The position numbers were made by a program, and so were the translations under genes. From NCBI RefSeq assembly GCF_047948215.1, contig NC_134457.1:85887398-85951397 (forward strand): a stretch of 64,000 bases of DNA, written 5' to 3'. The notes under the pieces are model-generated. The model made no database searches. It worked only from the letters and a program-made list of their open reading frames with translations, and was not told where the DNA came from. The DNA is from Lycorma delicatula (Eukaryota > Arthropoda > Insecta > Hemiptera > Fulgoridae). Positions within the stretch are counted from its first letter, which is position 1; every line of letters starts with the position of its first letter. Positions 549-49,754 of this stretch are shown in pieces.

Positions 549-654
549 CTGCGGTAAACTGCAGATTATTGAGCCGATCCACGCACCAGATAGCAATACT
601 TTTCCTCTTCTGTCAACGTCACATATATTCATAGGTTTCAAAACAGCGAAGTAC
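549..654 (-). CDS. AKHR: AKH/GnRH-like receptor (class-A GPCR), exon: DRY to end of TM4
   Basis: Reading the minus strand, a polypyrimidine-rich acceptor ending TTTCAG (to 655) precedes the exon, and a GTAAAT donor (from 548) follows it. With the two bases AG from the upstream exon the first codon becomes Arg, and the exon reads RYFAVLKPMN, then a basic DRRGK stretch, then VLLSGAWIGSIICSLPQ. This is the conserved end of TM3 (DRY), intracellular loop 2 and TM4 with its invariant Trp. The exon is 106 bases, has no stop, and ends in phase 0. The 'YFAVLKP' and 'AW..S..CS.PQ' patterns are typical of insect adipokinetic hormone receptors, G-protein-coupled plasma-membrane receptors that mobilise fat-body reserves. 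The related AKH/corazonin-related peptide receptor is the main alternative; a corazonin receptor fits less well. Later exons lie outside the window. Confidence 0.86.
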
Positions 655-873
655 CTGAAAATTATTTATAGAAAATTATATTTATTACTCCATAAAATAA
701 TAATATAATTAAATAACAAAACTGTAAAATTTTAGGTTCATTACTAGAAGTTCACTGCGTTGATTACATTAAATTCAGAAAGATTTTCATAACCTTTTGC
801 CAAAAATTTTTAAAAACAAGCTAATTTTGTTTTTGCGAAATTCTCAATCCGTATTCCTAAATAATTCACTGAT

Positions 874-1034
874 TTTTTTTTTCAACCTCTGAGAGCACTG
901 TTAGGTATTGCTTCAGAGGATGAGATGAATGACAAGTAGCATGTGAAAATGCCATGTCTGACGGAGATTCGAACCAGGGACCTCCGGATGAAAGACCGAG
1001 ACGCCACAACTCGCGCCACGGGGACCGGAAATTA
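874..1034 (-). repeat. tRNA-derived SINE (family 1), near complete
   Basis: Read on the minus strand it starts GGTCCCCGTGGCGCGAGTTG (A-box-like), carries a B-box-like GGTTCGAATC near 975, then a shared body GTCAGACATGGCATTTTCAC, and ends in an A-rich tail (T run at 873-881 on the plus strand). The heptamer CACTGAT occurs at both flanks (867-873 and 1035-1041) and may be the target-site duplication. Head and body recur at 39.1, 52.4, 54.9 and 56.0 kb. It is not a functional tRNA gene because the sequence 3' of the B box does not close an acceptor stem. Confidence 0.75.
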
Positions 1035-1099
1035 CACTGATCTATACATACAAAATTGTATCATCATATCAGAAAAGAAATTTTTGTGATTTCTTGACT

Positions 1100-2390
1100 A
1101 GATGATAATTTCACATATTTTATTTGTTCGACAAAACGATGTTATGAGTCGGTCGACTTTACGGGATTTCTCTCGTGTAAAATTTAAAAGGAATTTAAAA
1201 AGACAATGAGAACAAAAAATCTTATTGACTGAACTAACCATAATCTATTTTTTCTATCGATTTTTATGATTTTATTATTAGTATTTTGATTTGATATATA
1301 TGATTGATATGAACGATAATTAAATTTTATAAAACTTTCGATGACTATTTAACCTTATGAAAATAAGAAAATTAGTACAGGATTACGTTCCCAGCTGACG
1401 TACTGTAAGTGACACAGGATTATGCAGAATAAGAGATTGTTCTGGATGAGGCTTATTTTCGACATAGGTGCAAAATGCCTCAATAATTTTTTTTTTAAAC
1501 TGATAAATTAACTTTTTCATTTATCATTCACAGTTAAATTATTACAATAATAAAAAAGAAAAAAATCATGTATTTTTTACAAACTATTCTGGAAATGTTA
1601 AATTCAAACATTTACTTACTTGATAGAGATAATAAAACAATTCTAATTTTCACCGACTCCTTAGCACGTATAATGATGTTTTAAGGATAAACGGTGGATA
1701 AATGATTTTATCCATCGTTTAAACAATTTAAACAATAAAGTTTAAGTATTAAGCTATATATAAATTTCGGGAAAGAATTCATCATCTCGTTAAAAGAATT
1801 TCTAAAATAAAATAACCATATAAGTAACCTCAGTGAATATAATAATTATCTCTTTAAAATATGTTTAAATAAAGTTTGATTTTTTTTTTTTTTTAAATAC
1901 CAAAGTAAACGATATGGACCACTGTAAATTTATGATTAACTCGAGGTAGATATTTGAGTTATGCACACAAGTACTGCGGAAATTATATTGAGTTAATAGG
2001 AACGATGCTTGGCTGCATTCCTAACGTAATTAAATTATGTCGACATTAATTTCGTCTGTATATTTTAGAGTTTTTAACTTAAAAAAATAAAAATTATTAA
2101 TTAAACAAATAAACAACATTTCACAAAGTATTAATATGTGTAAAAAAAAATTATGTTATTTTAATAAACTTTTGAATTAAAGATAAATAGAAGTAAATAG
2201 AGAGATTGAATATCTTGAAGAAAGAGACGGATCTGAACCACACTTTCCTGGATAGAATTAAAGAGTATTCAAAAAGTGATGCGACCTTATGAAAGAATGT
2301 TTCCTTCTTTTTTTGCAAGTTTAATTGAAGAAAATTGAATAAAAATGGGTAACACAATGCAGCAGAGAATATTCATTGTCTCCCAATCTC
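1100..2390. other. AT-rich intronic DNA without recognisable content
   Basis: I see homopolymer runs and short A/T-rich motifs but no open frame longer than about 70 codons, no protein similarity and no clear repeat structure. The minus-strand frame at 2151-2357 is low-complexity and judged to be chance. Confidence 0.6.
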
Positions 2391-2399
2391 TCAATACAT

Positions 2400-3440
2400 T
2401 AGATGTACCAGTTATACCCAGACCCAGAATGCCTTTACAGAAAGTATAGTGTGGATACACCAAATGAGTCCTCCATCAAGCATCTGTACGACAAGTTCCA
2501 AGAGACAGGGAATGTGGCAGATGCAGCCAAAAGTTGTCGATCAAAAGTGCTAACACCAGAAAATTTGATATTATGTTATTCCCAAAAAGTCTGTGCGACG
2601 CCTACCTAGCCAGTCTGGTTTCTCCGTTGGTAGTGCACACACGGCATTGGGCTAGTGCTTAAAAAGCATCTACACAGAATTCCACACATGAATGTTGTTC
2701 ACTAGTTGCTACCTGCAGACACTGGAAAACGTGTAGCTTTCTGTCAGTGGTTTACATCATCTGTAACGCAAATGTGGAAAAACTCGATCGTTGGTTTTGG
2801 TCTGACAAGAAATGATTCCTTGATGGATACGTGAATGCACAAAATTCACGCATTGTGCGTGTTTGTGTGCAATTTCAAGTAAGCGAATCTTTATGATATT
2901 CTTTCACGGCTCAATGAACAGTGAGCACTTCATACAGATGGTGTAACAATTTTTAAACACTATTTCTGCAGACCGGCTACAGTGTACGTGGTTTCACTAG
3001 GACAATGCTACGGCTCATACAGCCAATAACACTATGACTTTCTTGGATTAGTGTTTTCATGAACAAGTGATTTCGAAGGGGTTGTGGTCCCCTCGGTCTC
3101 CTAATTTGTCCCCTTCCTGTCTGCTTCTTGTGCGGACATGTTAAGGATGCTGCTTACAAAACTCATCCTTACACCATTCCCGAATTGCGGAGCGAAATTT
3201 ATGTGTAGCTGTAATTCCTCAAAAAACGTTACAACATGTTTAAGAGCATGTAACGTCGTATTCAATTATGTGATTCGCTCCGAAATTTATGTGTAGCTGT
3301 AATTCCTCAAAAAACGTTACAACGTGTTTAAGAGCATGTAACGTCGTATTCAATTATGTGATTCGCTTAATGGAGGCCACTTTCAACAACTATTGTAATT
3401 TATTCATTTTCACAAATGTTGTGTCACTTTTTGAACAGCT
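2400..3440 (+). pseudogene. Tc1/mariner (IS630) transposase relic of the DUF4817 type
   Basis: The DNA-binding end reads YSVDTPNESSIKHLYDKFQE followed by TGNVADAAKSCRSKVLTPEN (2439-2570), the helix-turn-helix region of DUF4817-containing mariner-like transposases. In shifting frames follow SPKKSVRR with SGFSVGSAHTAL (2580-2655), GYVNAQNSRI (2825-2850), a DNATAHTANN-like catalytic-Asp segment (3000-3030) and LWSPRSPNLSP (3085-3115), matching the family order up to the final Asp region. Several frameshifts and stops break the gene, so no active protein can be made. The enzyme would have cut and pasted its own element via a DDE/D catalytic triad. An 88-bp tandem duplication near the C-terminus is listed separately. 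Terminal inverted repeats were not identified. Confidence 0.85.
3192..3367 (+). repeat. 88-bp tandem duplication inside the transposase relic
   Basis: Two adjacent copies, about 3192-3279 and 3280-3367, share the run from GCGAAATTTATG (CCGAAATTTATG in the second copy) to GTGATTCGCT. Apart from that first-base difference I see one other difference (ACAACATG versus ACAACGTG). The near identity, compared with the decay of the surrounding relic, says the duplication is younger than the insertion. Confidence 0.9.
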
Positions 3441-3609
3441 GCATGAAAAAATTATAAAGCAGTAAATATCAAGATGTGATTACTTTAAACATAAAAGAAA
3501 GTGCCAAATGATAATGAATTGGAGAAATTATACTACTTTCAAAAAGCTCTTACCTCTGCATCGGTGTGAAAAAAATTATATAATTTTAAAACTGAATGAA
3601 AAAAAAATG

Positions 3610-4235
3610 TTGAGAAAAACTTAAGCGAAAAACAATATTGTTTCCGCTCCGGAAGAAGCATAATTGATAAAATTCTCTGTGATAGGAAACTAACCTAAAA
3701 ACCTAACTAACCTATTTATTAAAGATTGATAGGTGTCAGACAAGAATATTTTTTTTTACCTGTTATAAATGAGGTAAGAAAAATATTTATAATGATAAAT
3801 ACGATTATGAAATGTGGATAATATATGAAAGAGAGTGGAATAAGTTGCAGCCAGTTATAAAATGAAGTTTTTAAAAATGTAGAAATGATAAGAACCAACA
3901 AAATAAAAATACAGAGATCGGCAAAAATTTAGTAGTAAGTAATTTAAGAGATAGAAGGAAATATATCGAGATGGCTAGGGTATGTAAACAGAATGTTAAA
4001 ATTCTAAAAATTACATAAAAAAAATTCAATGAAAAAGGAAAGCGATCAATAGGAAAGCCATGTAGAAAATGGATAGAAGGTAAAAAATTAGATTTGTAAA
4101 AAGTGATATTCGTGAGACAGAGTAGGAGCAGTGGTTGGAGAATGAGAGGACGAACAGGTGTCGTTGGTTAATACCTAAAACCATATTAAAGTAAAAGAGG
4201 AGCACTCAATACAAGTATTACGTACGTTAAAAAAA
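3610..4235 (+). pseudogene. LINE reverse-transcriptase relic
   Basis: At 3625-3690 the plus strand reads LSEKQYCFRSGRSIIDKIL, the RT motif usually written Q.GFR.GRSt.D.I. Further on, 3960-4180 holds WLGYVNRM, then KGKRSIGKPCRKWIEGKK, the C-terminal GRP(R)..W tail seen in many insect LINEs. The segment between is too decayed to read. The element is probably 5'-truncated and internally deleted; the clade cannot be fixed. Confidence 0.6.
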
Positions 4236-4259
4236 GGTAAGTTAAAAAAAAGGGATGAA

Positions 4260-5700
4260 ATTACAAGATGACATGTGAAATATGGGGACCGGAAAAATAT
4301 TCAATAGTGTTGACTCTCACACGAATAAAAATATACTGATATATTGTATGTATTTTTGGTTTAGTATGAAACTAAAAATTCGTAATTTATACTTAAAGAT
4401 ACTTCTTAATCATTTCTGTACGTTTCCTGAAAGATAGTGTGGCGTGACATGTCTAAATCGCCTATGAGATGATTATCATTTTTCGGAAATTGTTTTTCTG
4501 AAGGGCTGTGATGGTGGAGAAAGGTGTTGACGTAAAGAATTCAATTTTAGTCTTTGTGAAGAATTTCGTAAAATACAAACCAAAGAATGTCAGCTATCAT
4601 TCGCAAAGATTTTAATTTAAAATAATTAGCTATTACTGAAGGTTTGTTAAAGAAAAAAAGTAAGAACTCATAGATCCAGAGAAGGATTATCAAAAATTAA
4701 TTATTAATGTGCTAATATATGTATGTTCATTTTTTATGTATTTTTTTAAAGAGGAATTTGCAGGCAAATAGTATGATTTATGCAAAAAACTGTTTTTAAG
4801 TAACTTCTTGTATTAAAAAAATAAAAAATAATAATAGAAATTTGATTACAGAAACATTTGAAGGTATACAAAATCCCGTTATCTAGTGACCATGATTTTT
4901 TATGATTTTACATTACTGTATTTTGAAAAGTTAAATAATTTAAACTTCAGAGCATTTTATAGTACAAAAAAGTTCAGTATAAGGAGAACATGTGACGCTC
5001 AATATCGGTTCACTCAAGTAATTAAAACTTTCTAACACCGATTTAGAAGACCTTGCCACTTATATTCTTATCGTCAAATTGGAAAAATTATTTTACAGGA
5101 AATAGTTTAAACGACTTACTACAATTCATTTACAGCACGTATATAGAAATAAACTATGATGGAAAACGATTTTAATTTACAACTTTGACGTATTTCGAAT
5201 ATTAATCAGAAGATGTGTAATGAAATATCTTTATCACTTTAATTTTAACTCCTCAAAAAAAAAGTCATATTTATTAATAATGTAATATTTTATAAAATAT
5301 GAAAACTTTACTAAGGAAATTTCAGTATTAACAATCACAATTAAAACGGATTATTGGGGTCAATTTTAAATGAAATTTGATTAAAGATCCCTAATAATAT
5401 TTTAGTGAATAAATTAAATTAAAAATTTTACTAGGAAAAATTAAATGCATAATACGACATTCTATAAGATTACAGTTTAGGAAGCGTACAAATAAAAAAT
5501 GAAAGTAAAAAATGAAGCGTACAAATTAGAGTTGTAATTTATGACTGATTTAATTTCACTCTGGTAAGTTTCTTCCTTTCTTGGACAAATGATCACCTAA
5601 TAATTGATGATTTCAGTTATTTATAACCGCTCAAATATATTTATTATTGTATTTTAATATGTGTTTATTTATTAGGGTGAGTATGTATGTTTGTTTGTGC
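4260..5700. other. AT-rich intronic DNA, nothing recognised
   Basis: No open frame, repeat pair or protein motif could be supported in this stretch. It contains only short A- and T-runs. Confidence 0.6.
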
Positions 5701-5720
5701 GTGTTTCAGAGTGATACACG

Positions 5721-6185
5721 AAGAATTTAACAAACTTTCAGGACATGTTCTGCAGATAGAAAACGTTTATATAAACACAGGTTTGGAAACGCTTGGTTAG
5801 CGAAAGATTACTCCCTATTTCTACACCTTCGGTAAAATTAAGCATACGGTAATTATTAGTACCCCAATTAAGGGATAAATTTAGTGGTTTTATTGGACTT
5901 TATTAATATCATTTTATTCAGATTGTAATTCGGTGTAAATTTTTTTTGAAACATTTATGTGTTTATTACCAATTTAATAAAGTTATTTTACGTCTAACAT
6001 AAAACAGTGTGTTTTTCGAAAAAAACATATGTTCTGGCTTAATTTTATTGAAGGCGCAGAAACCAGAGCCAAATCTTTTGTCAGCCGACACTCGTTAACG
6101 AAGGGTTTCTGAACCTATATTTATGTGAACGTTTTTCTTTATTTCATTAGTAGAACATTTATACTGAAAGTTTGTTAAATTATTT
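5721..6185. mobile_element. Fold-back / MITE-like element with long imperfect inverted arms
   Basis: The left arm (5721-5846) contains AATTTAACAAACTTTCAG, ATGTTCT, AACGTTTATATAAACACAGG, GGTTAGCGA and GTAAAATTAAGC. The reverse complement of the right arm (6036-6185) gives the same blocks in the same order (AATTTAACAAACTTTCAG, ATGTTCT, AACGTTCACATAAATATAGG, CGTTAACGA, ATAAAATTAAGC). Between the arms lie about 190 bp of AT-rich sequence with no coding capacity. This is the architecture of a non-autonomous fold-back element; the parent family is unknown to me. Confidence 0.65.
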
Positions 6186-7010
6186 GTGAATAATTTTGTA
6201 TATCGGCCATCCCAAATGAAACTGTGCACCAAGTTTACTAAAATTTAATTTATTACATTCAAATATAACGATAGAAACCAGGAATAATACTACGATGAAA
6301 TTCTATCTAAATGAGATGATCAACATGTTCATCATTTACTTCTAGGCAAGCCTGAATATGTTCCAACATATTCAAAAAAAAATTCCAATTTTTTCGTCAT
6401 GTAATGATTGTTATACGATCTCATGTAGATTATTCATAGACCACAGTCAACTATTCTGGCTGCTGACATGACCGGTAAATGAAACCTCATTCATCTGCAA
6501 CATTGAGGATTTCTTCTCTTTTTCTTTTATAAAATCCAAAGATCACTATCAATATTCATCATGTTTAGGAAAATCAGTATTGTGTAACTGATGCATTGCA
6601 GTTATTTTGTACGGGTGTAATTTTAAATGTTTAATTAATGATCTGTTCGTACTACTCTGATATTTCTGCTTTATTGTACCAATTTTCCAATAAATGTTTT
6701 TAGATTTTGAGCTATGCGATCAGATACATCATCCAACTTTTTCTTTGTCAGGATAGATGGTCTTTCAAACGCGGGTGCGTCTTTGACAAACCTAGTTTTT
6801 CAGGACTTGATGTTGAAGTTTTACACAGCATTGCTTTGTGAAACTTTGATATCTGGAAAACTTTACGAAACATTTCCTTCACGTATTATGTGTACTTACC
6901 TTTGCAACGAAACACATTTTTAAACGAAAAATGATAGCTTCACGTATTAAAACCTTTGCCACCCACGAAAAAAAAAGCTTCAGTGGGTGTAGAAATAGAA
7001 TATTTTGTTA

Positions 7011-7068
7011 GGGGGTCCAGGGTGCAGAGCTCTCTGGCTAAATGGGAAGGGTGGGCGAAACTAGCAAA
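7011..7068 (+). repeat. GC-rich GGGGTCCAGGG module, copy 1
   Basis: GGGGGTCCAGGGTGCAGAGC followed by TCTCTGGCTA and a GGGCGAAAC-like tail. It has an internal CCAGGG/CTCTGG near-inverted repeat and stands out by GC content. A second copy lies at 7192-7246 in the same orientation. Modules of this look occur scattered in many genomes; I cannot name a function. Confidence 0.7.
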
Positions 7069-7191
7069 CTGCAAACTGATCAAACCCTTGCTCTGAAGAA
7101 ATTACAGTACACTGATAGTTTTCATAAATTGAACAGGCTTTAATTTTTATTTATCATTATTATTCTCACAAGTATGCGTTAAATTAACACA

Positions 7192-7246
7192 GGGGTCCAG
7201 GGAGCAGAGACCCCTGGCTAGGAGAGAAGGGCGAACGAAGCGAGCT
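7192..7246 (+). repeat. GGGGTCCAGGG module, copy 2
   Basis: AGGGGTCCAGGGAGCAGAGA followed by CCCCTGGCTAGGAGAGAAGG and GCGAACGAAGCGAGC. The arms CCAGGG and CCCTGG could pair. This copy is better preserved than copy 1, including the GCGAACGAAGCGAGC tail. Confidence 0.7.
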
Positions 7247-7334
7247 CAGATCAGCTACTTAAATATAAGTCATTAATGATTATAATCGTTTATTCATTAT
7301 TGTAATTTTTAATAGTGAAAATAGTTTTTTTTTT

Positions 7335-8890
7335 ACAGATGAATCAATGCATTAAATGCAAGATCAGCAGCTGGTCTTGTTGGCATCCCTGTATTTATTG
7401 CACGAGGCATTGCTGAACTAATAGCGCCAGTCTTGAATTGGCTATTTAATTTTAGTTTGCGATCTGAAACTTTTCCTGAGTACTGGAAGAAAGCTCTTGT
7501 ATTGCCGACTCCAGAAAAGGACAACTTGCATGAAATATGTAGTTATTGACCTGTTTCTGAATTAAATACAATTTCTAAGGTTTTTCAGACATTAGGCTGC
7601 ACGAATTTTTACGCTAATGTAGCGAAATGTGTAAATTTTCGGCAACATGGCTTTATAAAGAGAAGATCCACAGCCACCTATTTATACGATATGCCGTCTC
7701 ACGTGGCGCCAGAAGTAGAGAATCAGGGGCAAGTTAACCCAATACACTCTGGTTTTCATAAGGTCTTCAACTCTGTTCCTAATGACTTACTAATTCGTAA
7801 GTTAAAACTATATGGTTTTCAAGGAGAAATGTTGTAGTAAATAAAGTCTTACCAGACAAATAGAATTTTTCAAGACAAAGTATCAGGTAAAGTTTCAAGT
7901 GAACATATTGCAAGGTCTGGTATTCCACGGAGATCTATTCTCAGTCCTCTGTTATTAATACTGTATATTAATGATATCGAAAAAGTTAGAGTCAAATATT
8001 TTAATGTTTGCCGACGATATCAAATTATATTCTAAAATTAATGGTTATGAGGCATTTTTAGCCCTTCAAAAGGATATTGATACAATTTCTGTCTGGTCCA
8101 AACGTAAGGAAATGATTTTGACAAACAGTTAAAATCAAAAAAAGTTACCAGAAACTTGATAATTTTGACAAAACAGTCGTGGATAACCTACTCCAGGAAG
8201 ACATTAATGGAGAAGTACCAGTATTTAATTAATGATACGATAATTCATCGTGTGGAGAAAGTTTGGGAATAATTTTGGATACCAAGCTGCTGCTGAATAG
8301 TCATGTAGAGAAGATTACATCTAAAACCAGACGGAATCTTGGATTTCTTTTTTGAGTGAGCCGGCTTTTTCAGCGAATTGATTGCATCTTGAAGCTGTAC
8401 TAGATCATGGTTAAACCGGTTTTAGAATATTGTTCAGTGGTCTGGAATTATAATAAAGCTAATACCATCAAACAGGTATAAAGAGTTCAAAGAAAATTTC
8501 TATTCAACTTGCGCTGCGTAGTTTATGTAACAGGGTCAAGCATATGAAGAACAATGCGAATTGCTTGGTTTAAAGATTCTTAGTTAGAGGAGATGCCAGC
8601 ATGATGTAATGTTTATTTTTCAAGGAACTGTATGGATTTATGGATATCAATGTTTTCTGTAGTGAAATTAAGAGTGCCTATGTAAATAGTCGGAGGCATT
8701 AGTTATTTGCAAGTGAAAGAAGAAATACATTGTGGATTGTAAGATGTGTAGTGAGTTTAAAAAAGGTCAACCAAAGCATGGATGTAGATGTTTTTGACCA
8801 AATGCTATGCATTTTTAAAAATAGCCTTAAAGCCATGAAGTTATGTGGGAATTAAAATTGAATATGTTTATACCGATTGGTTTTTATTTT
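7335..8890 (+). pseudogene. Non-LTR reverse transcriptase relic (Jockey/CR1-like)
   Basis: Beginning mid-gene, the plus strand reads GIPVFIARGIAELIAPVLNW and FNFSLRSETFPEYWKKALV (7385-7505, the palm/fingers entry), FRQHGFIKRRSTATYLYDM (7635-7695), FHKVFNSVPNDLLIRKLKLY (7755-7815), SGIPRRSILSPLLLILYIND (7915-7980), and after a frameshift LMFADDIKLYSKI (about 8000-8040), the catalytic FADD motif. After another break come GIILDTKLL, TRRNLGF, VKPVLEYCSVVWNY and RVQRKFLFNL (8265-8510), the thumb region of this LINE group. Stops and frameshifts are frequent. The endonuclease half is missing, as expected for a 5'-truncated copy. The clade assignment is from motif pattern only. Confidence 0.8.
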
Positions 8891-9057
8891 TTGACGAACG
8901 AAAGGATATTTTAAAAATAATATATGACATAAATCAATTATGTTTAAAAAGAAATAATGAAAGAAATGATAGAATAAATAAAGTTTTTATATGAAGCACT
9001 TGGTGTTGGATTAGTTTAGAATATAATTCAATAATGCTTTAAGGTAGATTGTTTTAG

Positions 9058-9170
9058 ATCAACGGTTCTCAGCCTTTCAGGCTCTGTTCCTCCCTTTGAA
9101 CACTGATGTAAGGTCACGCCTGCTAGCTACACCACCACCACCACCACCACCATCACCATCACAACCACTA
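9058..9170 (+). repeat. hAT-terminus-like sequence with (ACC)n microsatellite
   Basis: CAACGGTTCTCAGCCTTTCA at 9059-9078 resembles the CAGYGGTTCTCAACCTTT terminus of some hAT elements. A CACCACCACC microsatellite with CAT interruptions follows at about 9130-9169. I found no matching second terminus, so this may be a single orphaned end. Confidence 0.35.
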
Positions 9171-9179
9171 TATGTGGTC

Positions 9180-11820
9180 AATCGGAATATGAAACTGACG
9201 CTGAATTATTATTGATGTATCCTGTTATTTTATATTATTTGAATTAATAACATAAATTTTAAAAATAATCGATGAAAAAACATATCTACATTAAAATGTA
9301 CCAATTCGTGACATTTAAAAATTAAAAATACCACCCACGTAACTTACTATATGATAGGTTTTAAGAACACTAAATGCTTTACAAATATATCTCGTATAAT
9401 ATAGATATTGAAAAACTTACTCTTAATGTCGAGCAGTAATAAAATTAATCCACATGCAAATTTTATTGATCCTCTGATGAAATGCAGAAAAAAATAGACA
9501 GATTGGTCTTCGATTTACAAATGCTTAAAATATTCATGAATTTAACATATATTTTAACCGATATCACCTTTTCGTTTGATTAACCCTTTTTTTTTTAAAT
9601 TCATATTAAAGTTCATTTTATTATTATAAAATATATATATATATATTTCAGCGAATAAAAAAGATATTTGCTTGACCTATATGTTGATCAGTTTATGTGT
9701 ATACATGTATATTTGTGAAACATACGAGCGGTAAATAAAATTCTGTTGCAATTTTCTTAAAAAAATACAATTCTTTCTCTGAAAAACGTTTTAGTCAATT
9801 ATATTAAGTTAATCAGACGGATGAACAATTATTGATAATACTAACAAAGTATTGTAAACTAGATCACTATTTTAATTCAGGATTGAGGATTTTTAATACA
9901 AATTTTTTCCTACTACTACTATGCTAGTGGAGGATTATGTGTCTTTTATAAGTGATGTGTTTTGTGTGTCCATGTAAAACCTGAACCGATTTTCGTAAAA
10001 TAATTGTTAAAACGGTTTATCTCACAAAAATAGTCCTGAGTGTATACAATTAGAAAAAAATTCGAGCTGTGTACACGATTTTTCAAAATTACAAGAAATA
10101 TATTTTTAAACTAAAAAAATTGGTTAATTATATGAAAGTAGTTGAAAAGAGGATTAAAATATAAATATACGAATTGTAGGATCCAATAATTAACTAGACA
10201 GGAAGTCATTAGAACCTGATGATTTAAAAAAAAATTGGCATCCTGACCTGTGGGCAGGAATCAAAATGGCTGTGACCTTCCATACCAGATACCATTTCAG
10301 TAGCAATTTAGCAGTGAACTGATGTACACAGTTTGTATAATATTGACTCACTTTGTAAAATATAGAACCACAAGCTATACAACAGAAACATAGCAGCATC
10401 ACACAAAACACAAGCGCATTAATACTTTTTACGTCTCAAAGTTTAATATTTATTACTTATATAAACAGTTCTTCCTAATATAATTGGAAAAACTTTGGGA
10501 ACAAATTCTTCAAATCAAAAATAATTTCTATTAGCAGACATCTATATATGTAATAAAAGTAATTTTGTTTATAACTACATTGAATATGAATTAACAATAG
10601 TTGTTCGAATTGTTTCCCGTTTGAGGGAATGAATGTCTGCTCGAAGACAGGAACCAATAACTCTGTTATAACATTTTGCAATTTTATATATATCCCCGAT
10701 TGATTTTGAATAATTTCATAGGTATAAAAATAGCTTAGCGTTTTTCGTTACTAACTGATCTTGAGTATATTAATGTTTTCATGGGATCCTAAAATAAAGA
10801 TCAATGAAATCAACTAATATGTAATTATTATTATTTATTAAAATTATTATTTTTAAAATTAAGTAAATTATTGTTTTTATTCAGTAAATTATTATTTTTA
10901 ATATAAATTTAAACAAAGTTAAATAATTAAATTTTGATTTTTTCCTGTAATATTCGATGTTTGTAAGTTTTTCTTTACTAATGTTATTTTTTCTTAGAGT
11001 TAATGAAAACTGGCTCATAATTCAGATGATAAATTCGGTTGTTTTCAATACTGTTTAAATAAATATAATTTTTCCATAATGAAATACTTAAAATTTTTTC
11101 TAATAAAAGTAAATTAATAAAAAATACCTAAGTTACGTAAATATAATTAATTTAAAAAATAAAAATTTGTTAATAAATTAAAAATTTTCTAGCAAAATAT
11201 TCTCATATTAAATTTTTTTTCTTTGTTAATATCTGTTTGAACGTATATACAGAATTTTATTCATATTTCACAATATGACTTTGAAATATGGATTTACATT
11301 GAAAATTTAGGAAAAGGATTATAAAAATAATCTGTTAAGCTCTTTTGCTTTCAGAAATTGAAGGAATCCTGCATTCGGGTGGAAATAAGAGAAGGGGTTC
11401 TGAGAAACGATGTCAAAACCAAAACCTTTGGTCTTTGGAGTGGAGCAATACATTATTTTTATTATTATTTTTTCTTACATAGGCCAAAAACATTCTGAAT
11501 ATCAATATCGGGCTATAAATCATTACGCTACAACAATCTTAATACTACGCAATAAAGTCCAATCGATATACCTAAGAAACAAATATCACTGTTCATTTTT
11601 CTTCTGTAGGATCATTAGAAACTATTAAAAAGGATGGTGTTGCTGGATGTAATAATGGTGATAGTTCTAATTTAAATAATGCTAGAAATATTTGTACTGA
11701 TGAAATAAAACTGAAAGCCGACATTCAAAATGAATGTTGACTTCTGTAATTGAATGTCACGATGTGGATGAGACATAGGTTAATTTTCATAATGATTTGG
11801 AAAATTATATTTAGCGTTTT
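9180..11820. other. AT-rich intronic DNA, nothing recognised
   Basis: Six short open frames occur here (for example minus 10190-10411 and plus 11410-11628). None shows a protein motif, splice context or consistent codon use. A short (TA)n run lies at 9630-9650. No repeat or gene could be supported. Confidence 0.55.
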
Positions 11821-11824
11821 TTAT

Positions 11825-11965: not shown

Positions 11966-11969
11966 TCTT

Positions 11970-38830: not shown

Positions 38831-39058
38831 ATAATGTCATATACCAACCCCATAAAAGTTATGCCACATTCCAACCCCTACGGGATTGTTTTTAGAAAGG
38901 GCCCCGCAATTTCAGATTTGCCCCGAGCCTCGCAAAAGCTAGGGGCGGCCCTGCAATTAAGTATATACTATCTGTTCTCTAGGAACATTGGATATGTACG
39001 AGCTGAATATAATCGGCTTATAGAAGATAAAGCCCATTACCCATTAATTTAGTTTCGT

Positions 39059-39186
39059 TTTTTTTTTTTTTAGATGGGTCAATAGTAATGAAATTAACTT
39101 TTTTTAGTAGCGTGTGGAAAAATGCCATGTCTGACCGGGACTTGAATCCGGTGAAACCGCTGCAACTCCGCCACAGAGATCAGCTA
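39059..39186 (-). repeat. tRNA-derived SINE (family 1), diverged
   Basis: On the minus strand: GATCTCTGTGGCGGAGTTGC head, a B-box-like GGATTCAAGTCCC, GTCAGACATGGCATTTTTCC body, and an A-rich end (T run at 39,058-39,072). It is diverged from the copy at 0.9 kb. Confidence 0.65.
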
Positions 39187-39189
39187 AAA

Positions 39190-40930
39190 TCAATTTAATA
39201 TTTTACAACCAATTCTGAATTTACTCTCGTGTGAAACGATCAGTAGATACTATAAATCTATTATTTTTTAAATAACTAATCTTTTCTCGTTTTCCTTGTT
39301 CCTAGTATTTTTTGTTTTAATCAGCTTAAAAAAACGTAATAATTTTTTTAACTTATTAAGAAGTTAACATTTTAATAATTATTAAAATTATTCTCTTTTA
39401 ATAACCTGAATAAGAAAAAGTATGGATGAGTTAAATAAATAAAGTAAAATAATAAGACAAAAAAAAAAACAAGGTTCATTTTTAATGAAAATACGAATTA
39501 AATATTTCATCCCAGTGAAAGGAATGTATGTATAGTAACTCTTAGAAAATAATTACTTAGCAGCACATTGTATTATCAGTATCCTAACTATATCCATTGT
39601 AAAATGATTGGTAACTGGAAAACCGATAATCTAAAAGCACCCAACCGGGTTAGAATAATGAGAAAAGATGGGTTTTTATACAGTTAATAAAAAAAAAAAA
39701 AAATTTGAAGTTTCATACGGACGTAAATTCATGTTAGGAAGAAGTAGCCAATAAAGGATTTTCAGATTTAAAAAAAAAAATATCCACAATGATATTAAAC
39801 TGCAAAATTAAATAAAAAAACTAATACAGTATATAAATTAACAGTACCCACTATTTGTTATTTAATTTTGTCGGTTATACTTAAAACTCATCGACAAAGA
39901 TATTCTTCTAAGTTCAGTTTAAAAAATATAAAACAGAATAGATAAAATGCTATTATTAATCATATATGAACTGTCATTAAATTGAATAGTTCAAGAAGTT
40001 GTATGATAGAGATTTATTTTATGTGAACTAGTACATAGTAAAAAGTTACTTCCCTATGAAATGAATAATTACTGTTAAGTTACATATGTTATAGATACTA
40101 TTCAATTTAAAATTAATTCTATTTTCAGCTTCGTTAAACAATGCATTTAATTCATTTCGTAGACAGATTTAGATTAAGTTGAAATTGAATAAATTTAGAG
40201 CAACATGACTTCAAACAATTTATTAATAAATCTTCTTTATACTTGGCAGTTTTCAATAAAAACTTTTTCCTTCTACTTTAATTGAAAAATGATTTACTAA
40301 AGAAAATAAATCATTCAAACTTATTTTATAACATTTAATGAATATTTTTTTAAATGTTCAATCTATTTAAAAAAAATCCCTATTATGATTTTACTGTAGG
40401 TGTAAAGTTTTTAAGTAAATTCGAAGTAAATTCTTTATTCCATCGATATGTATTTGCTTTCCCATTATAAACGTTTTCAGGATAACTATACAAATAAATA
40501 TTTTATTCTATATCTATACATATTTTATATATATCACGTCAAAAATGGATATGTGTACTATTCCACTGATAAAAAAAAGAACTGCTACAACATTTTCCTG
40601 AAAGGATTAAGGGAAATCATGGTGAAACCTTGATTAGAGTAGCATCACAAAATAGAAAACTCAGTTATAAGATAAAAAATAGGTGTGATTAAAGTCCATA
40701 TTAATTTTCTAAATTATAAACACTTGAAATAATATAAAGAAATTATAAACACTTGAAAAATTATAAAATACATGAAGATAATAAATTTAAAATACAATCC
40801 ATAAATCAGAAGGCATAAAAATTATTTGAGCGAAAATTATATACATCGTTGAACTTGAAAATTCAAATTTTCAATCATTTTTATTTAGTATTATGTTTAA
40901 AATTTATGGAGAGTGTAATGTTTATTTAAA
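39190..40930. other. AT-rich intronic DNA, nothing recognised
   Basis: Contains poly-A runs and, near 40,710-40,760, a short direct duplication of AAATTATAAACACTTGAAA. No gene is supported; the frame at 40,448-40,633 is low complexity. Confidence 0.55.
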
Positions 40931-40964
40931 GGAAATTTTTTAATTATAATATAAATAAATTGGC

Positions 40965-41520
40965 GGGAAGATTTTATTTTCCCGTCTAGCGCTATAGCTT
41001 TAGAAGAGAAGTATTGTAATTCGTCCAATTTGGGCATATGCGGTTTTCACCGGATCTTGACGTTTTGACATCTAAGGAATCCAAAAATCGGGATAGAAAT
41101 TTTCCAGATGTTTGTATGTACAAACATACATGTTTGTTCGGTGTTGCACTCCATATATCTTAAGAACTACTGGACCGATTTTGACCAAACTTTGTAAGAT
41201 TACTTTTGAACATGGGGAATTGATTTCATTAAATTTTCAACTTAAAAAGTCAAGGGGGTGAGGCTGTACAGCAAGGTTACCCTCAGTATCTCCAGATTTC
41301 CCCTAATTAAGGCCTTATTTTTATTTTTCTTAGGCACATTTGTTAATTAAAAAATAATAATATTTGCAAAAAAAATTTTGCAAAATCGCACCCCCACCCC
41401 AAAAAATGATTTAAATAAATTAGAGTCCATCTCACCACAAGGAGCGCTAGTATAGCACTGACGTACAGTTGCTGTAGTCGTCTGTAGGTTATGACGTCAC
41501 AGGTGAGCGATATAATTAAG
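40965..41520 (+). repeat. Dispersed non-coding repeat (CCCGTCTA family)
   Basis: TTTTCCCGTCTAGCGCTATA, AGAGAAGTATTGTAATTCG and CTTAAGAACTACTGGACCGA are present. The first two are shared with the repeats at 16.2 kb and, in part, 33.8 kb. It includes a near-palindrome at ATGTTTGTATGTACAAACAT (41,119-41,138) and ends in GGTTATGACGTCACAGGTGA. No coding capacity. Confidence 0.45.
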
Positions 41521-41529
41521 CAAATGAAT

Positions 41530-42600
41530 AATTTTTAAGTGTAAAAAAGTATTTAAAGTAGCAGCTAGTATCTCCACATCTGCGCGAATGAAATACGGCA
41601 TGCGCGACGTTTTAGAATCATTGAATTAAATAAACAAAACATATTATATTTAAATAAAGTGATAAGTATTTTAAATTAAGTTGTGTGTGCAAGCTGTTCA
41701 TCAGAAAAAAACCGCGTCACAGAAAGTCCTACAACTGTGTTGTCAGATTTTTTTTGATTTTTCGGTAATTTATTAAAAATGACAAAAAAAGCATAATAAG
41801 GCTCTTTCTCGTAAGGCGATTTACTTTATGAGTTATGATTTAGTTGAAAAAAAGTTCTGTTGTCTGCTTTGATAGAGATTGATATTGTTATTTTAAAAGA
41901 ATAAGTAACTATTCTTTGTTATGTTAACATTTCGCATTTTCTAAATATCGGTCTGAATATATTAATAGCCGCCTAAAAATAATCTGATAATAATAATAAT
42001 TCTCAGTTTATAAGACATTAATAAAAATTATTTGAGCACAAATTTACTTACAAAATTAAATAGAGAAGCAAAAGTTTAAAATTAAAAAAAAAATCGTACA
42101 GTATTATTTAAAAATTCATTGGTAAGAATAATACTTTTTCTATAAAATAAAATCCTTTTACTTTTAAATTAATTGATAGAAATATCTTATGGTTCAGTAA
42201 ATTATTAAACATATAAAATTAAAATTAAATATTTTTAAAAGAAAAAATAAATTGTCTACGTGCATAATTTAACCCTATATTGCACGAATAATGTAATATT
42301 AAACAAAAAACTTTTCACTTATAAGGAAATCATATATCATGGAAAAATATTTTAATTTATTTTAATATTGTTTACAGATAATATTTTTCTTTTTAAGAAT
42401 AGTTTTTCCATTATAAATACATGCATTTTAACGTTAACAGTATACTGTTCCTTTATAAACCTTATTATAAATTAATATTTCTTTTAAATTATTTTTCTTT
42501 AGATTTAAAATGTCTATAATAAATAATTATTATTGTTTCATTATATAATAATTATAATTTTTTAATATTTAGTCTTTTATAAAAATTAATAGTTGATAAA
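41530..42600. other. AT-rich intronic DNA, nothing recognised
   Basis: No open frames, motifs or repeats supported. Confidence 0.6.
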
Positions 42601-42611
42601 ATTAAAATTTA

Positions 42612-42790
42612 TTATTTATTATAATAGATTTTTGTTCATCCAAAGTCAAACATACACCAGATGTATAAACACGATCAAACATATCATCACCAGGCAAGTA
42701 AAACTGAACATCTCCATACTTAATATTAAAATACTTAATTAAAAAATGTGTTTGATTTGAAATTCTTTTACTTTATGTAATACTTTTTTG
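42612..42790 (-). pseudogene. Unrecognised coding-like remnant
   Basis: A minus-strand frame reads HFLIKYFNIKYGDVQFYLPG, then DDMFDRVYTSGVCLTLDEQK and SIIINNKF before a stop. A frameshift near 42,745 would add LHKVKEFQIKHIF. The residue mix looks protein-like, unlike the surrounding DNA, but I do not recognise the family. There is no canonical acceptor or donor in frame, so a host exon is unlikely; a decayed mobile or viral remnant is possible. Confidence 0.3.
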
Positions 42791-43513
42791 TAATGATTTC
42801 CTTATTTATTTATTATTTAATAAAATTGTTCAATAACTTAAAATTGTTAAAATTTACAAAAAACGTTTTTCTTGTCTCATGAAAAACTTGCTATGATGGA
42901 TATGTTTGTTTTTGCTTAAATGTTTCTTATTGGCATAATGTCTAGAAACAATAAATACAAATGTTTATGAAGTTGTAAGTATTTTTTCCCCTCCCTCCAG
43001 GAACCAGATCCTCAATTAAGCATGAACACGGTTCCGGGAGGTGCCTTTGCCTCTAGTCGCCAGACGAGGGAAATGTCAGGCCCGGCTATGCCGTTCCCGG
43101 CCAACATCACTCAGCAACCGGGTCCTTTCTGCTTCGCCTCTAACGGGGACACCCCCGAAGGGACGGCCCCGCTGGGACTCAGTCTATTAGCTCAGGGGCT
43201 CGAGAGTCCCCGCACTTCATCATCGTCGTCCATCCGTGCAAGCACGGGCGAACGGCAGCTCCGTACGGAGCTGTCCCTCACCTCCATCCATCGCGATATT
43301 TCAGTTGCAGTATTCCCGACACAAACCCTGTTACATTATCGAAGTCCACCGAACTTCGTAACATCGTTCCAACGACGGTCCCCACTTCGAGATGCCCAGT
43401 TACAGCAGTACAGTCTCAGCGTTCCTCGTCCCACCGCGGGCACTGCAATATCACGTGTTTTCCGGCGTGTCTTACTTCCGTCAGTAGGAGCAGAAGAGGT
43501 CTTCAGCTCTTCT

Positions 43514-43860
43514 TCATCCACACAGGTATGAACGAAAGACCCCATGGCCGGTCAAGAATTTTGTCAGCCAGAATCCCAGTTTGCCAAACTTCCTCTCGGC
43601 CCACGGCTCAATGTGCGCGATCAAACGATGCGTCCACGAAAAGAAGGTGGACGCATCCCACCTGGCTTGCCAATCCCTGTAGACAGTTCTGTTGACATCG
43701 ATCTTAGACACACCCTGATAAATTTGCGCACTAGCCGCCACCAGCTACTGAAGTGGCGCCATCCCAGTCAACACCAGTACCGCCTCAGTCGAAACAGAAG
43801 CGTATGCCGACGCCACCTTAAGAGCCATACGGCGTTTTATTAATAAGGCAGATGTGCCTG
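43514..43860 (-). pseudogene. R1-like C-terminal segment
   Basis: The frame at 43,514-43,741 reads DWQARWDAS, WTHRLIAHIEPWAERKFGKL, FWLTKFLTGHGVFRSYL, the same W..RW, RLI..I..W, LT.(F/Y)LTGHG.F..YL pattern as the nested R1 copy at 35.3 kb (there PDLQAWLSRRHGDM and YTGHGNFNNYL). The Cys/His tail is decayed. The long plus-strand frame at 43,022-43,531 is only antisense of this element. Confidence 0.8.
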
Positions 43861-43903
43861 TACGAAGTGGGCGCCTCCACCATGCCAGGTTTCTTTACCA
43901 AGA

Positions 43904-44463
43904 CTAACCTCGACCACTTCCAATCTTCCGGAAAGAAACCACGCGCAGCATGGTATTAAATACTCGGCAGACCTCCGCCGGTGTCTCCCCCACTAAGATG
44001 CGGACTACTTCGACTGGTATGCCATCCGGGCCAGGACTCTTGTGCAGTCTCATCCGTCTACTGGCCCGGATTAGCTCCTCGATCCGAAAGGGCGGAATGT
44101 CATCAACCACTATCTCTTCCCGTAGGAGGTCTTCACCATTAGAGAACAGCGCTCTCACGCTCCCGCACCTGCTCCTCTGTCAGAACCGGCAGCGATTTGC
44201 CAAACCTTCCAGCCGCAACCCAGTATCCCAGCTCCGCGGTTCTCCAACAATACTGTCGCACAGTACCCTCCAACACTCAGGCGAAGAGGACAGTACCCTC
44301 CATTAAACAGGCGAAGAGGAGTCTTCGCCTGTTTAATGGCATATCTGAGAGCCATTAGATACTCTCGTCGTAAATGCTCGGAGCGTACAGGGTCCCGTCC
44401 TCTACTACGCTTGTAGGCCTTCCTCCTGGTCCATGATCGCTTGTGCAACCTGTTAATTTCCAC
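43904..44463 (-). pseudogene. R1-like linker and start of RT domain
   Basis: MEINRLHKRSWTRRKAYKRS begins the linker; from 44,158 a second frame reads PPFRIEELIRASRRMRLHKS then PGPDGIPVEVVRIL, the KSPGPDGIP entry motif of LINE reverse transcriptases. The RT ends here; catalytic motifs are deleted. A 30-bp tandem repeat and an 18-bp-arm hairpin are inserted at 44,261-44,339. Confidence 0.78.
44261..44339. repeat. 30-bp tandem duplication followed by 18-bp-arm hairpin
   Basis: CAGTACCCTCCAACACTCAG GCGAAGAGGA (44,261-44,290) is repeated with changes at 44,291-44,320. The arm 44,300-44,317 then pairs perfectly with 44,322-44,339 (CCATTAAACAGGCGAAGA with TCTTCGCCTGTTTAATGG) around GGAG. Together it looks like a compound template-switch scar inside the retrotransposon. 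Confidence 0.9.
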
Positions 44464-44639
44464 ACTCCATCAATAAACGTGCCGTCGCCTCGGTTGGGTG
44501 TAAGTCACCCGAGAAAATAGTAAATAGTAGAAAGTAGTAGTCTACACTCGTCCGCTACTGTCTCTGTAAACTCCTAAGGAAACTCATCTTTGATCTCCCG
44601 AGTTTTCAATTTTCCGGGAGAACTCGATGCAGCCTACTT

Positions 44640-45400
44640 TGGAGCTGATTATTCTCGCCGGAGTGTCAATTCTGTGCCTTTCAGGTAATCAAACATTATT
44701 AGCCTATGATCTGATAGACATTCCTTCTCCAGCAGCTTCCAGTTACAATAGTCGCCAACACGATCCTTCGTAACTAATGCCAAGTCTATGGCCGATCTCG
44801 ATTCCGCCCCGTTGGAACGTGTCGCCGTCTCCTTTAATGCAGCTGAGACCCAGCAGACTCACCCGCTTACTCAGGTAAAGGCCCCTAATCGACGCTATTC
44901 GACCAGCAAATTGGGAGGACTTGGCGTTAAAGTACCCCACCATCAGTACACTCCTGCTCTTATTCCTGCTGACTTTTTCACTAAGATCGTCCAAAAATGT
45001 AAGGAAATTCTCTATGTCGGTGTTGGGCGAGTGGTAGCAGCTTTGAACCACCAAGCCAGCCCATACAAAGCCTCTCTATGATCCCCAGCCGACTACTGGC
45101 ACACTAGCCGATGGGAGGCCAATAGCCGCCCCGGAAGTCCGACCCACCATCCAGAGAGGTTCCCCCACCATCGCCTTGTTCGGCTCAGATACCAGGATCA
45201 CGTCTACCGCCTCTCGCTGAGCCACCTCCCAGCACAGATCCATGGCCTGTCTACACCTGTTTGCACTGAATTGGAGGAACCTCATTTCGTTGTCGGACAT
45301 CCTCTGGCTTGGTGGCCCTCCATACCACACAGCGCACAACATGCCACCTCCGTGCATCGCTCCTGCCAGTGACCCGGTTTCCCACACGTGAAGCATAAAT
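44640..45400 (-). pseudogene. R1-like endonuclease domain, frameshifted
   Basis: From 45,290: LQFSANRCRQAMDLCWEVAQ, then VDVILVSEPNKAMVGEPLW (catalytic Glu in SEPN) and SVPVVGWGS. In a second frame from 45,054: VVQSCYHSPNTDIENFLTFL, RSVLMVGYFNAKSSQFAG (catalytic Asn in GYFNA; normally GDFNA, so Asp is Tyr here). Then GGIEIDLALVT-like and LSDHRLIMF near 44,700. The motif order matches R1 endonucleases that nick target DNA. Confidence 0.78.
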
Positions 45401-45590
45401 CAGTACTATCCGGGCCCGAGCAACGAGACGTGACATGCTCCACCTCCCAGTATGGAAAACAACTGTCTTCCACCTCCCTAATGTAGGCACGACAGGGACC
45501 CAGCCAATCTTGTTGCGTTCATCAGTCAGCTTCTTAGCCACAAGTTGGCTAGTAATGACCGTGGTGTTTTTTGTGTGTCCGTATGCCAAT
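45251..45590 (-). pseudogene. Gag-like C-terminus with CCHC zinc knuckles
   Basis: One frame gives TSQLVAKKLTDERNKIGWVP, then a frameshift leads into the frame 45,282-45,473 with CFPYWEVEHVTSRC, CFTCGKPGHWQERC and CALCGMEGHQARGC. The last two are intact C-x2-C-x4-H-x4-C knuckles; in the first the second Cys is Tyr. Three such knuckles at the end of ORF1 are usual for R1-clade elements, where they bind element RNA. Confidence 0.8.
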
Positions 45591-47235
45591 CAGTATTTGT
45601 GTTGCAACTCTGTGCTTAATACCAGTACATTCACAATATTATCACTGCACACTATAATTACTGTCATTAATGAAAGAAAAAAACAAAAATTGAAAATATG
45701 TTTCCCATCTTTCCCACAATTAGGATACAATCTTCTTTGCAGAGTGATAATGTTTTTGTCATCCAGTAGGTTCTAAATTCTACAACTACACAATTTGTTA
45801 AGCTAGTAAATACTTATAAGAATTTAAAAATTCAACTCAATGTCAAGACACTGTGCTCTGAAGTGTTTTAAATGCTACTTAAAAACAACTCAAATGATAA
45901 TATTCTGAACTATTCGAATAAAGAAAAGTTTCTTTTAATATTAAATTTTTAGCTCTCTGTGCCTAAAATAAATTCTGAAATTTTTTTCATTCTTACATAT
46001 CCTTATATAAAAAAAAGTTTTTTGTGATGAAAAAGTAAAAATTTAGAAACACTAAAAAAAGCTGATTTTTTACTTGTGAAGGTATATTAATAAGTAAATT
46101 TCTGAGATCCACCACCACCAAACATTCTGCATTTGAACCTAAGCATGTAGATTTATCTTTTTTAATGTCAAATTTATCTATTCTAATTAAAACTGATTAG
46201 AAAATCAGTGATGAATTAGAAAAAAAAAATAAAAAAAATTCAAATTAATCGAATAAAAGTTTTAAAGGTTAGTGCTACTTTTTAAACTATTACTTTTAGT
46301 ATTGTACAGGATATCTCCACCTCTTATGATATGGTTTGAAAATATTTCCAACTTGACAAAGCCTTATTAAAAAAATAAAAATTAATTTCATAGATTTCAA
46401 AACCAGGAAACTTAAAAAAAACAGCAGATTTTTAGCGATACTAGTGGCTTTTAAATTAAACAAAAAGTATGATTTCTTGAATTATAATATTATGATTTTT
46501 ACAATTTTTATAATAAATATGTTTCAAATTTTCATGAAGTTCAACCTTGTTTGAGTTACAGCACATCTCAGTGTCAACCCAAATACTTCAACTGATCTTT
46601 AAAAACAATTTATAATCAAGTTACATAATATATAAGCTACCACAACAAATTTCATGATTTTAAGGTACATCATTTGTGAGATACAAAGAAAAATAGATGA
46701 TAACAAACATATATACATATACTGTATATTAACAGATTTTGTAATATTAATTTTCATATTTCTGTATTCAGACAATTAAAATCTTTGAGAAACACAAGAT
46801 TTCAGATGGAGTTCATATTTTTATATCAATAGACTTTTCCTGTGCAATACTTATAATCTCTGAGCCGGGGTAATGTTATTTTGAGATAAAACTGTCAACC
46901 TTATCCTAATTTATACATGGTAAAAATATTGATAGTCTATTTTATTTATTTATTATTATTTTTAAAGATTAATTTTTCCAATTAAGGTAGTTTATTGGAA
47001 TTTTACATTAACCTAATTGCAATTACCATGTTGTTCTATATCTATAAGGATTGAATAGTTCATAAATAGAACACTGGATCCTAAAGAAACGTTCTAAGTA
47101 AGTCAATCTTACAACTTAATTGCTTAGAATTAATAACCTAATGGATGGTTCACTTTCTACCTCACTAAACGCAAACGATTATTTTATCAATGAAGAGGAA
47201 ATAACTTGTATTATGCACTTCTAATGAAGAGCTCT

Positions 47236-47273
47236 GTCATCACTATTTATTAATAGTAATAAATAGTGATGAC
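47236..47273. repeat. Perfect hairpin, 17-bp arms, 4-nt loop
   Basis: GTCATCACTATTTATTA pairs with TAATAAATAGTGATGAC around ATAG; the arms extend four more bases outward with one mismatch (CTCT / TGAG side). Confidence 0.92.
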
Positions 47274-48409
47274 TGAGAACTGAGAGATAATCACAATATT
47301 AACACAGGCTCATAAATAGAATTTTAAAAGTAGAATTAAGTTAAAGTTTGGATGAAATTAAAACCCAAAATAATATTAAAATTCAGTGGAAGATCTTTAA
47401 TTATTCAGTGATTACAACAGAAATTAACAACTAATTTTTATTAATTAATGGGTTATGTTATCAACAATTCAACTTAATATTATGAAATTATAAATGTTAT
47501 TAGTTGTGAAAACTCCTAGTAAAACATTTAAATGGTAAATTAAGGTAATATTTAAAATAATGTAACCAGACACCACACAAGTAATTTTACTAACTTCTGT
47601 TCACTGCCACCATGACCTGAAGAGAAAAATTTATTAATCGTATCAGGTTAATAAAAACAACTTATATGACAAATCCGAAATAAAAAAAAAATATTAGAAT
47701 TTAGAAATTCCTCTAATTATTATCAATTAAATATGCTTACTACAATCTGTTCAACAAAGATGATGCCCGAAATCACAAAGCTCATTAGTGGATGTTAAAA
47801 AGAATCTGATGTATGATGTAATTTAAACCATGTTCATTTTATAAGTTTATGGTAAACATGTTTTAAATGTTATTAGGACCATCAGAATGAAACCTGATGG
47901 TTCTGCAACATCTGGAGTAACAACCTGGTAATTCAAGAGTGTAAAGTTAAAGTAAAATGCAAGTGATCATTTAATCGATCTCTACTTTGAATCAGAATTA
48001 CCAAAGTTAAGAATGCAGTACAGTTTACTGTATAACATCTTACAGATTTGCATAATCATAATGGTGTATCTAATTTAAATAAACAGTAAATAAATATAAG
48101 GAGAACAGTAATGCATATTAATCCATTTTTCAAGTAAGTTTATTTGTAACAATGTATGTCTAGCAAAGTAAAAATAAAAATAAAAAAATTACTTATTTGG
48201 TGATATTTTTCAATATATATTGTTAAAATGTAGTACAAAACTTTGGTCTTTTTCAAACACTTTAGAGCAAAAAAAAAGTTTAACTACTGTCATTAAGTTT
48301 CATTAAGGTAATAAAATAAAAACAAAATATATAGAACAGAAGTGTTAAGAGCATGTGGAGAATCTTCTGTAGCTGAATATATTAGAAAATCCAGCTTCAC
48401 CGAGCTACA

Positions 48410-48453
48410 TAAATACAAAGGGTGTAGAAAGATTTCTACACCCTTTGTATTTA
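48410..48453. repeat. Perfect hairpin, 21-bp arms, 2-nt loop
   Basis: The arm at 48,410-48,430 (core ACAAAGGGTGTAGAAA) is mirrored without mismatch at 48,433-48,453, separated only by GA. Confidence 0.95.
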
Positions 48454-49605
48454 AAGGTAACCTTTACAAGGATCAATGGGCAAGGTGCCAAAATTGCCAG
48501 ATTAACACATAGAGTAAAGACTCAAGAAAAAGCGTAAAAGGTGATAGTAAAAAAGGGATATATCAATACAGACACTGTGAAACAAAGTAAAAACAAAAAC
48601 CCTTATTTTTTAGTTCATTTAATATAGCCTAAACTTGATTTACAGTCATAAAGTTGTTCTTGATACTTTAATTACTTAACTTACTTATTAATTACTTTAA
48701 TTACTTTAATTACTTACGTTGGATCTGATTTAAGTTAGATTGTCTATCTTTAAGCAGGTATTTTCATTTCATGAACACTCCCACATCCAGACAGCTTTAC
48801 ACGGATAATACTAACAATATTTGTTCATACACGTATCTGCATAAGGTTCTTTATGTAAGTGTATGTGTGTTTTAAAGTGCATTAAAGTAAATAAATTATA
48901 GAAAAGTACAAGCTTTAAATCAACCATTCAAAAATATTTATTGATTTGCACTGATCTAGCTACAGGGTTCTAAAATTAGGTAAAATGTGTTGTACGATGG
49001 ATATATTATACTTATATCAGTATACCATATATACATATAAGTTATGATTACTACAGTGTTCTCTTTCTCAAAAAAGGAACATTTATTTATTTCAATTAAT
49101 ATTTTACAAATAATATGCATTTACTTCATTAATAATAATTTGACAATTATTCACTATTCGGCGTACATGCTAATAATGAAATAACTTAAAATAGTATGTT
49201 AATAATTTAATGAACGAGTACAATAAAAAATATATCCATACATGGAGAGATGGATGGATTAATACTGAGAGATTATTCAGAGTAATAATGAATAATTATT
49301 ATTACAATTAAAATAAAGAGACAAAGACTACAGCTGCATTACATTCTTTCACACGGTGGGTTTAGCGATAGGCAACACACGTGGCTTATGGAAAGTAGTG
49401 CATCATTTACTCTCAGGCTACTCTCAGTAATATAACCTACATATCTATGAATTTTTTTTTAATGAATTGATTAAAACATTTACGTAACTTCACAAGTGTT
49501 TATAAAAATTATTTCGTATTACATGTATAAAAAATAAATTTTATTAAAATAGTAGCAGTAATATATGCAAACATAACTTCCTTGTATTATAAGTTATATA
49601 CGTAC

Positions 49606-49754
49606 CTATCTATGCTGATACAGACAAGAACAAAGCTGGATTGAAAAAGTCCAAATGTTCGAAAAAATGCCATGATCTTACAAGCTGCATCTCCAGCCCA
49701 CCACGATACAGTAGCTGACCAAATAATTTCAAACGGCATTAATAGGAATGTTAC
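49606..49754 (-). CDS. AKHR: AKH/GnRH-like receptor (class-A GPCR), exon: TM2 end, ECL1, TM3
   Basis: On the minus strand a T-rich acceptor ending TTTTCAG (to 49755) is followed by a 149-base open exon and a GTACG donor (from 49605). The 49 complete codons read VTFLLMPFEIIW, SATVSWWAGDAACK, IMAFFRTFGLFQSS and FVLVCISID, then AG, the first two bases of the DRY Arg codon. This gives the end of TM2, an extracellular loop with the Trp-x-x-Gly pattern, the TM3 Cys that forms the conserved disulfide, and TM3. It joins in frame to the exon at 549-654 to give CISIDRYFAVLKP. The 'MAFFRTFGL..SSFVLVCISIDRY' pattern is the hallmark of AKH-type receptors of the GnRH receptor superfamily. The exon starts in phase 0. 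Upstream exons (N-terminus, TM1, start of TM2) were not found up to 64000. Confidence 0.88.

Follow-up and report, generated by a model that had tools for sequence, protein, structure and literature searches.

Two exons of a likely adipokinetic hormone receptor gene of Lycorma delicatula lie 49 kb apart on either side of an intron in the DRY motif

The insect genes for the receptor of adipokinetic hormone (AKH) are described as having 4-6 introns, some of which are common to an oyster gene (PMC5024129), and the four introns of the Drosophila receptor gene total about 1 kb (PMC1762030). In the planthopper Nilaparvata lugens the receptor is linked to lipid mobilisation (PMC6281999), and its knock-down is followed by a fall in haemolymph trehalose and egg number (PMC6338042). 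Phase-2 introns in the Asp-Arg-Tyr (DRY) motif are known from vertebrate G-protein-coupled receptors (GPCRs). They occur in dopamine D2-D4, tachykinin, endothelin, NPFF and other receptors; a list of such introns names 24 vertebrate GPCRs, and it is debated whether they are ancient or were inserted repeatedly (PMC3151243). Here we analyze a stretch of 64,000 nucleotides from contig NC_134457.1 (the window). It is very probably the middle of the AKH receptor gene of the lanternfly Lycorma delicatula, or of a very close relative, which encodes a rhodopsin-type GPCR of the gonadotropin-releasing hormone (GnRH) receptor superfamily. The gene is interrupted in the DRY motif by an intron of 48,951 bp.

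Both recognised exons are on the minus strand. Exon A (49754..49606, 149 nt) starts in phase 0 and encodes the end of transmembrane helix 2 (TM2), the first extracellular loop and TM3, and stops two bases into the DRY Arg codon, with GAT AG as its last letters. On its upstream side stands ...TTTTTTTTTTCAG and on its downstream side GTACGT. Exon B (654..549, 106 nt) supplies the last base of the Arg codon, the second intracellular loop and TM4, and ends on a full codon with ...CSLPQ; its flanks are ...AATTTTCAG upstream and GTAAAT downstream. Hence AG stands before and GT after each of the exons. Spliced together they give 255 nt, or 85 codons without a stop, which read VTFLLMPFEIIWSATVSWWAGDAACKIMAFFRTFGLFQSSFVLVCISIDRYFAVLKPMNICDVDRRGKVLLSGAWIGSIICSLPQ and are centred on ...CISIDRYFAVLKP... 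The intron between them (655..49605, minus strand, phase 2, GTACGT...TTTTCAG) takes up 76.5% of the window. It is a GT-AG intron that interrupts GAT AG/G TAC, the codons for Asp, Arg and Tyr, between the second and third bases of the Arg codon. The first-pass annotation, made from the letters alone, had proposed an in-frame pair of exons with consensus splice sites on every side and an intron of 49 kb that fills most of the window and splits this Arg codon. The exon pair, the intron and the split codon are all borne out. The term consensus is less apt for the acceptor at 654, because its pyrimidine tract holds only 8/14 pyrimidines, compared with 12/14 at 49754.

Note that the hexamer AGGTAC occurs at both ends of the intron (49607-49602 and 656-651, minus strand). 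The base-exact position of the split is therefore fixed by the GT-AG rule alone, and a reading without splicing likewise yields DRY on the donor side and RYF on the acceptor side. The phase-2 introns of the vertebrate receptors have the same position in the Arg codon and the same AG before the intron; they differ in that A or C usually stands ahead of this AG, while it is T in the window (PMC3151243). The split in DRY is a recurrent intron site of GPCRs and not an oddity.

A protein search with the two exons, joined and padded with X, resulted in 66 proteins from 83 candidates. The first was P0003, an NCBI protein of 372 aa from Lycorma delicatula, which sits on a 227-Mb contig. All 85 residues of the joined product are identical to residues 97-181 of P0003, with exon A covering 97-146 and exon B 146-181; the window is part of the gene for this protein or of a near-identical one. 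When P0003 was compared with the window by tblastn, exon A scored 109 bits (E 1.3e-28, 100% identity) and exon B 79.7 bits (E 1.15e-18). A second protein, P0004 (372 aa), is 85% identical to P0003 over the alignment. Its contig measures 1,314 bases, and since this leaves room for the spliced sequence only, P0004 carries the same join. The joined piece matched the Pfam profile 7tm_1 with an E of 4.1e-16, and P0003 covers the full profile (1-260). Among 267 PDB sequences the top three matches to the joined piece were GnRH receptor chains, with E values from 2.1e-19 to 1.1e-14. The DRY motif is found at the end of TM3 in the window; the NPxxY motif of TM7, in the form NPLVY, lies beyond the window and is seen in P0003 only.

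The position of the intron in relatives was compared at the level of proteins only. A search with the unpadded query returned 10 short fragments of open reading frames (ORFs), all of which were read, and three more proteins (P0067, P0037 and P0039) were picked by hand. Six of the 10 unselected fragments break at DR/Y, or 7 of 13 when the hand-picked ones are included, which points to an intron at the same position in these relatives, a comparison that the first-pass annotation had suggested. The break takes several forms. In P0170 and P0171, DR and Y are separated by in-frame inserts, 41 residues (123 nt) long in the first and 42 residues (126 nt) long in the second, which finish after a pyrimidine-rich run. 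P0176, P0178 and P0179 stop exactly at DR, as AG/GTAA would cause, and P0173 diverges directly after DRYF. P0067, which was picked for its visible break, carries 24 additional residues (72 nt) in DRY, and its exon sequence resembles the Daphnia protein P0051. P0037 and P0039 were picked for their shortness and are unbroken at DRY; P0039 is perhaps a cDNA.

The outer borders of the two exons recur in part of this set. Where exon B ends, 8 of the 13 proteins (P0037, P0067, P0170, P0171, P0172, P0174, P0175 and P0177) diverge after PQ and then read V, which is what GT would encode, as in the window; P0170 and P0171 are less clear in this respect. P0039 continues through this point and four proteins are too short to reach it. 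At the start of exon A, the receptor sequence of three of the 13 (P0037, P0173 and P0176) is preceded by unrelated residues ending in FQ; P0039, P0178 and P0179 are continuous here and seven begin downstream. Together, P0067, P0170 and P0171 resemble the window in that an intron is read through in the same DRY codon and the sequence diverges after ...PQ. They differ in length, with inserts of 72, 123 and 126 nt compared with 48,951 nt in the window, and they are known as protein only. These inserts appear to be unspliced introns of 72-126 nt translated within DRY, that is, prediction artefacts which record the position of the intron.

Other receptors were compared with P0003 by aligning 15 selected proteins. 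Its identity to records named as AKH receptors is 66% for Nilaparvata, 58% for Apis and for Locusta, 57% for Bombus, 56% for Pseudoregma, 55% for Pyrrhocoris, 54% for Hylobius and 48% for Sarcophaga. The values for other proteins are 70% for P0005, 65, 68 and 70% for three leafhoppers and 50% for Daphnia. The AKH receptor of Nilaparvata lugens (UniRef W6EAI5, P0006) is of the same receptor type, with 83% identity over the two exons, although this species belongs to a different planthopper family from Lycorma delicatula. Among the matches listed, including the best 120 of 519 for full-length P0003, the names are AKH receptor (the same eight genera among them), GnRH or GnRH II receptor, AKH/corazonin-related peptide (ACP) receptor variant I, or nonspecific; no corazonin receptor is among them. 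The 7tm_1 match and the identity of 48-66% to all eight AKH-receptor-named records agree with the AKH-receptor-type GPCR of the first-pass annotation.

Several observations weigh against the view that the window holds an AKH receptor gene with a single long intron in DRY. The acceptor at 654 is weak, as described above, and the length of the intron rests on the assembly of the window. P0172, P0174, P0175 and P0177 (4/10 of the unselected fragments) are continuous across DRY and have no intron there; therefore the intron position is not universal. The NCBI name of P0003 is 'adipokinetic hormone/corazonin-related peptide receptor variant I-like isoform X2' and not AKH receptor, and the comparison set is without a characterised ACP or corazonin receptor. 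Because of this last point, judged from the sequence comparison, the assignment to the AKH rather than the ACP receptors is likely but not proven.

The alternative that survives best is that the gene encodes a receptor for the ACP peptide, as the NCBI name says. The ACP receptors form the sister clade to the AKH receptors. Those of Rhodnius and Tribolium also carry DRY (PMC5794978), and for this reason the motif is indecisive on the class of the receptor; the corazonin receptor of Rhodnius carries DRF instead (PMC4971055). However, the label 'ACP receptor variant I' is attached to proteins from several insect orders among the matches listed, which suggests an automatic naming series. Furthermore, P0003 shares 48-66% with the eight AKH-receptor-named records, more than the 42.4% that even two ACP receptors, from Aedes and Rhodnius, have in common (PMC5794978); this argument is an indirect one. 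We consider an ACP receptor unlikely; P0003, which shows no difference from the window in the encoded stretch, probably bears a name that is wrong on the ligand.

Slightly less probable still is that the interval between the AKH receptor exons is not one intron, and that it hides cassette exons, a nested gene or a misjoined assembly. Its sheer length speaks for this, as do the transcripts of the Aedes ACP receptor, which skip exons (PMC5794978), and the label isoform X2 of P0003, which implies that other isoforms exist. On the other hand, P0003 has no residues between exons A and B. When the 64 ORFs of the window that reach 75 aa or more were compared with Pfam, six families matched with an E of 0.01 or lower: four are of transposon type, one is a zinc knuckle and one has no known function (E 0.0022). 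The window contains no match to Rfam at the gathering score and no tRNA gene. In these searches no nested host gene was recognised. Regarding length, the mean intron of two locusts is 11-12.5 kb, in genomes two to four times the size of the lanternfly genome, and the introns in the mRNA leaders of Locusta have upper quartiles of 34.6-46.4 kb (PMC8011201, PMC7607483). Against these figures 49 kb is a long intron, though nothing exceptional where the insect genome is large; the assembly of the lanternfly genome comes to 2.25 Gb and the estimate of its size to about 2.75 Gb (PMC6791401). The 49-kb intron is genuine and ordinary for such a genome, in which long introns are usual.

How the receptor transcript is processed can be proposed only in outline. 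The spliceosome would remove the 48,951 nt at the DRY site by exon definition of the two small exons. The intron may have grown passively, by insertion of transposons at an old intron site, which would be the simplest account. The unspliced frame at the donor reads ...DRYVYNL and then a stop, so that a failure of splicing would end the protein a few codons past DRY, as a three-helix stub. A giant intron at this place could be imagined as a timer or switch, with splicing tuning the dose of the receptor by season or tissue. We give little credence to this idea; the sequence of the intron shows no special function.

That the two exons arose by chance, as unrelated GPCR-like ORFs or pseudogene pieces, was suggested by their shortness and by the AT-rich window, and is rejected with near certainty, unless the database model of P0003 is in error. 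In 20 random windows that reproduce the dinucleotide transitions of the window, P0003 scored 29.3 bits at best, far below the scores of both exons, and the pair is perfectly identical to a 372-aa receptor matching full 7tm_1, with splice sites and phases that fit. An origin from two different receptor genes was likewise rejected: a single database protein contains both exons, adjacent and with 100% identity.

Residues 1-96 and 182-372 of P0003 had no above-chance match in the window by tblastn, and no further exons were recognised by six-frame patterns of helix motifs or by tblastn with five receptors, among the matches listed for P0003, P0006 and P0069. For this reason the flanking sequences, 14,246 bp upstream of exon A (49755..64000, minus strand) and 548 bp downstream of exon B (1..548, minus strand), are probably parts of the neighbouring introns, the latter the start of the downstream one. 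The first-pass annotation had taken the rest of the window as intron content. This seems correct insofar as no coding match was found; untranslated or alternative exons could lie there. The third-best match of P0003 to the window is on the plus strand at 29.04-29.29 kb (E 0.16), and P0069 matches the same stretch (E 0.77). It has stops inside and lies opposite a reverse transcriptase frame, and we took it as chance.

Much of what was recognised between the exons is of transposon type. A broken non-LTR retrotransposon occupies 27920-30954 (minus strand), with a 473-aa endonuclease ORF and RVT_1 in two ORFs that are separated by a stop; both its endonuclease (Exo_endo_phos) and its reverse transcriptase (RVT_1) domains are above the Pfam cut-off. 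Below this cut-off are a piece resembling a long interspersed element (LINE) at 35.1-35.7 kb (E 0.016) and an ORF resembling a LINE endonuclease at 44743-45075 (minus strand, E 2.6e-5). The latter lies in a GC-rich stretch (44001-46000) with a GC content of 0.47, compared with 0.295 for the window. The ORF at 38615-39049 (plus strand) contains the C-terminal dimerisation domain of a hAT transposase by Pfam, and the ORFs beside it at 37719-38325 had no Pfam match. The zinc knuckle and the family of unknown function were not placed when five ORFs were examined.

There are also shorter repeats. A unit resembling a short interspersed element (SINE) is located at 900-1030, about 250 bp upstream of exon B. 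Partial copies are found at 52400-52478, 54879-54956, 55962-56012 and 39106-39146, the last one inside the intron. The unit contains GGTTCGAAT, which we take to resemble a tRNA B box; ARAGORN and Rfam reported nothing for it. An inverted repeat at 50392-51013, with arms of 95 nt that are 95% complementary and 432 nt apart, is similar to a miniature inverted-repeat transposable element. Finally, 88 bp are duplicated in tandem at 3193-3367, near-perfectly.

The gene is already annotated, its family is known and so is the intron site; the new information in the window is how long this intron is, and a literature search found no statement of this gene's intron. The window demonstrates that raw sequence is enough to find exons of 149 and 106 nt which are 49 kb apart and to join them correctly. 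It also provides one more intron that is seemingly fixed in place while its length varies by two to three orders of magnitude among relatives. The receptor would bind the AKH of the lanternfly, which is listed as Corpu-AKH, pELNFSPSWa (PMC10926376), and would mobilise energy stores from the fat body, by analogy with the Nilaparvata receptor. For annotators the correct name, AKH receptor, would be useful: the lanternfly is an invasive pest, and this receptor probably steers its energy use.

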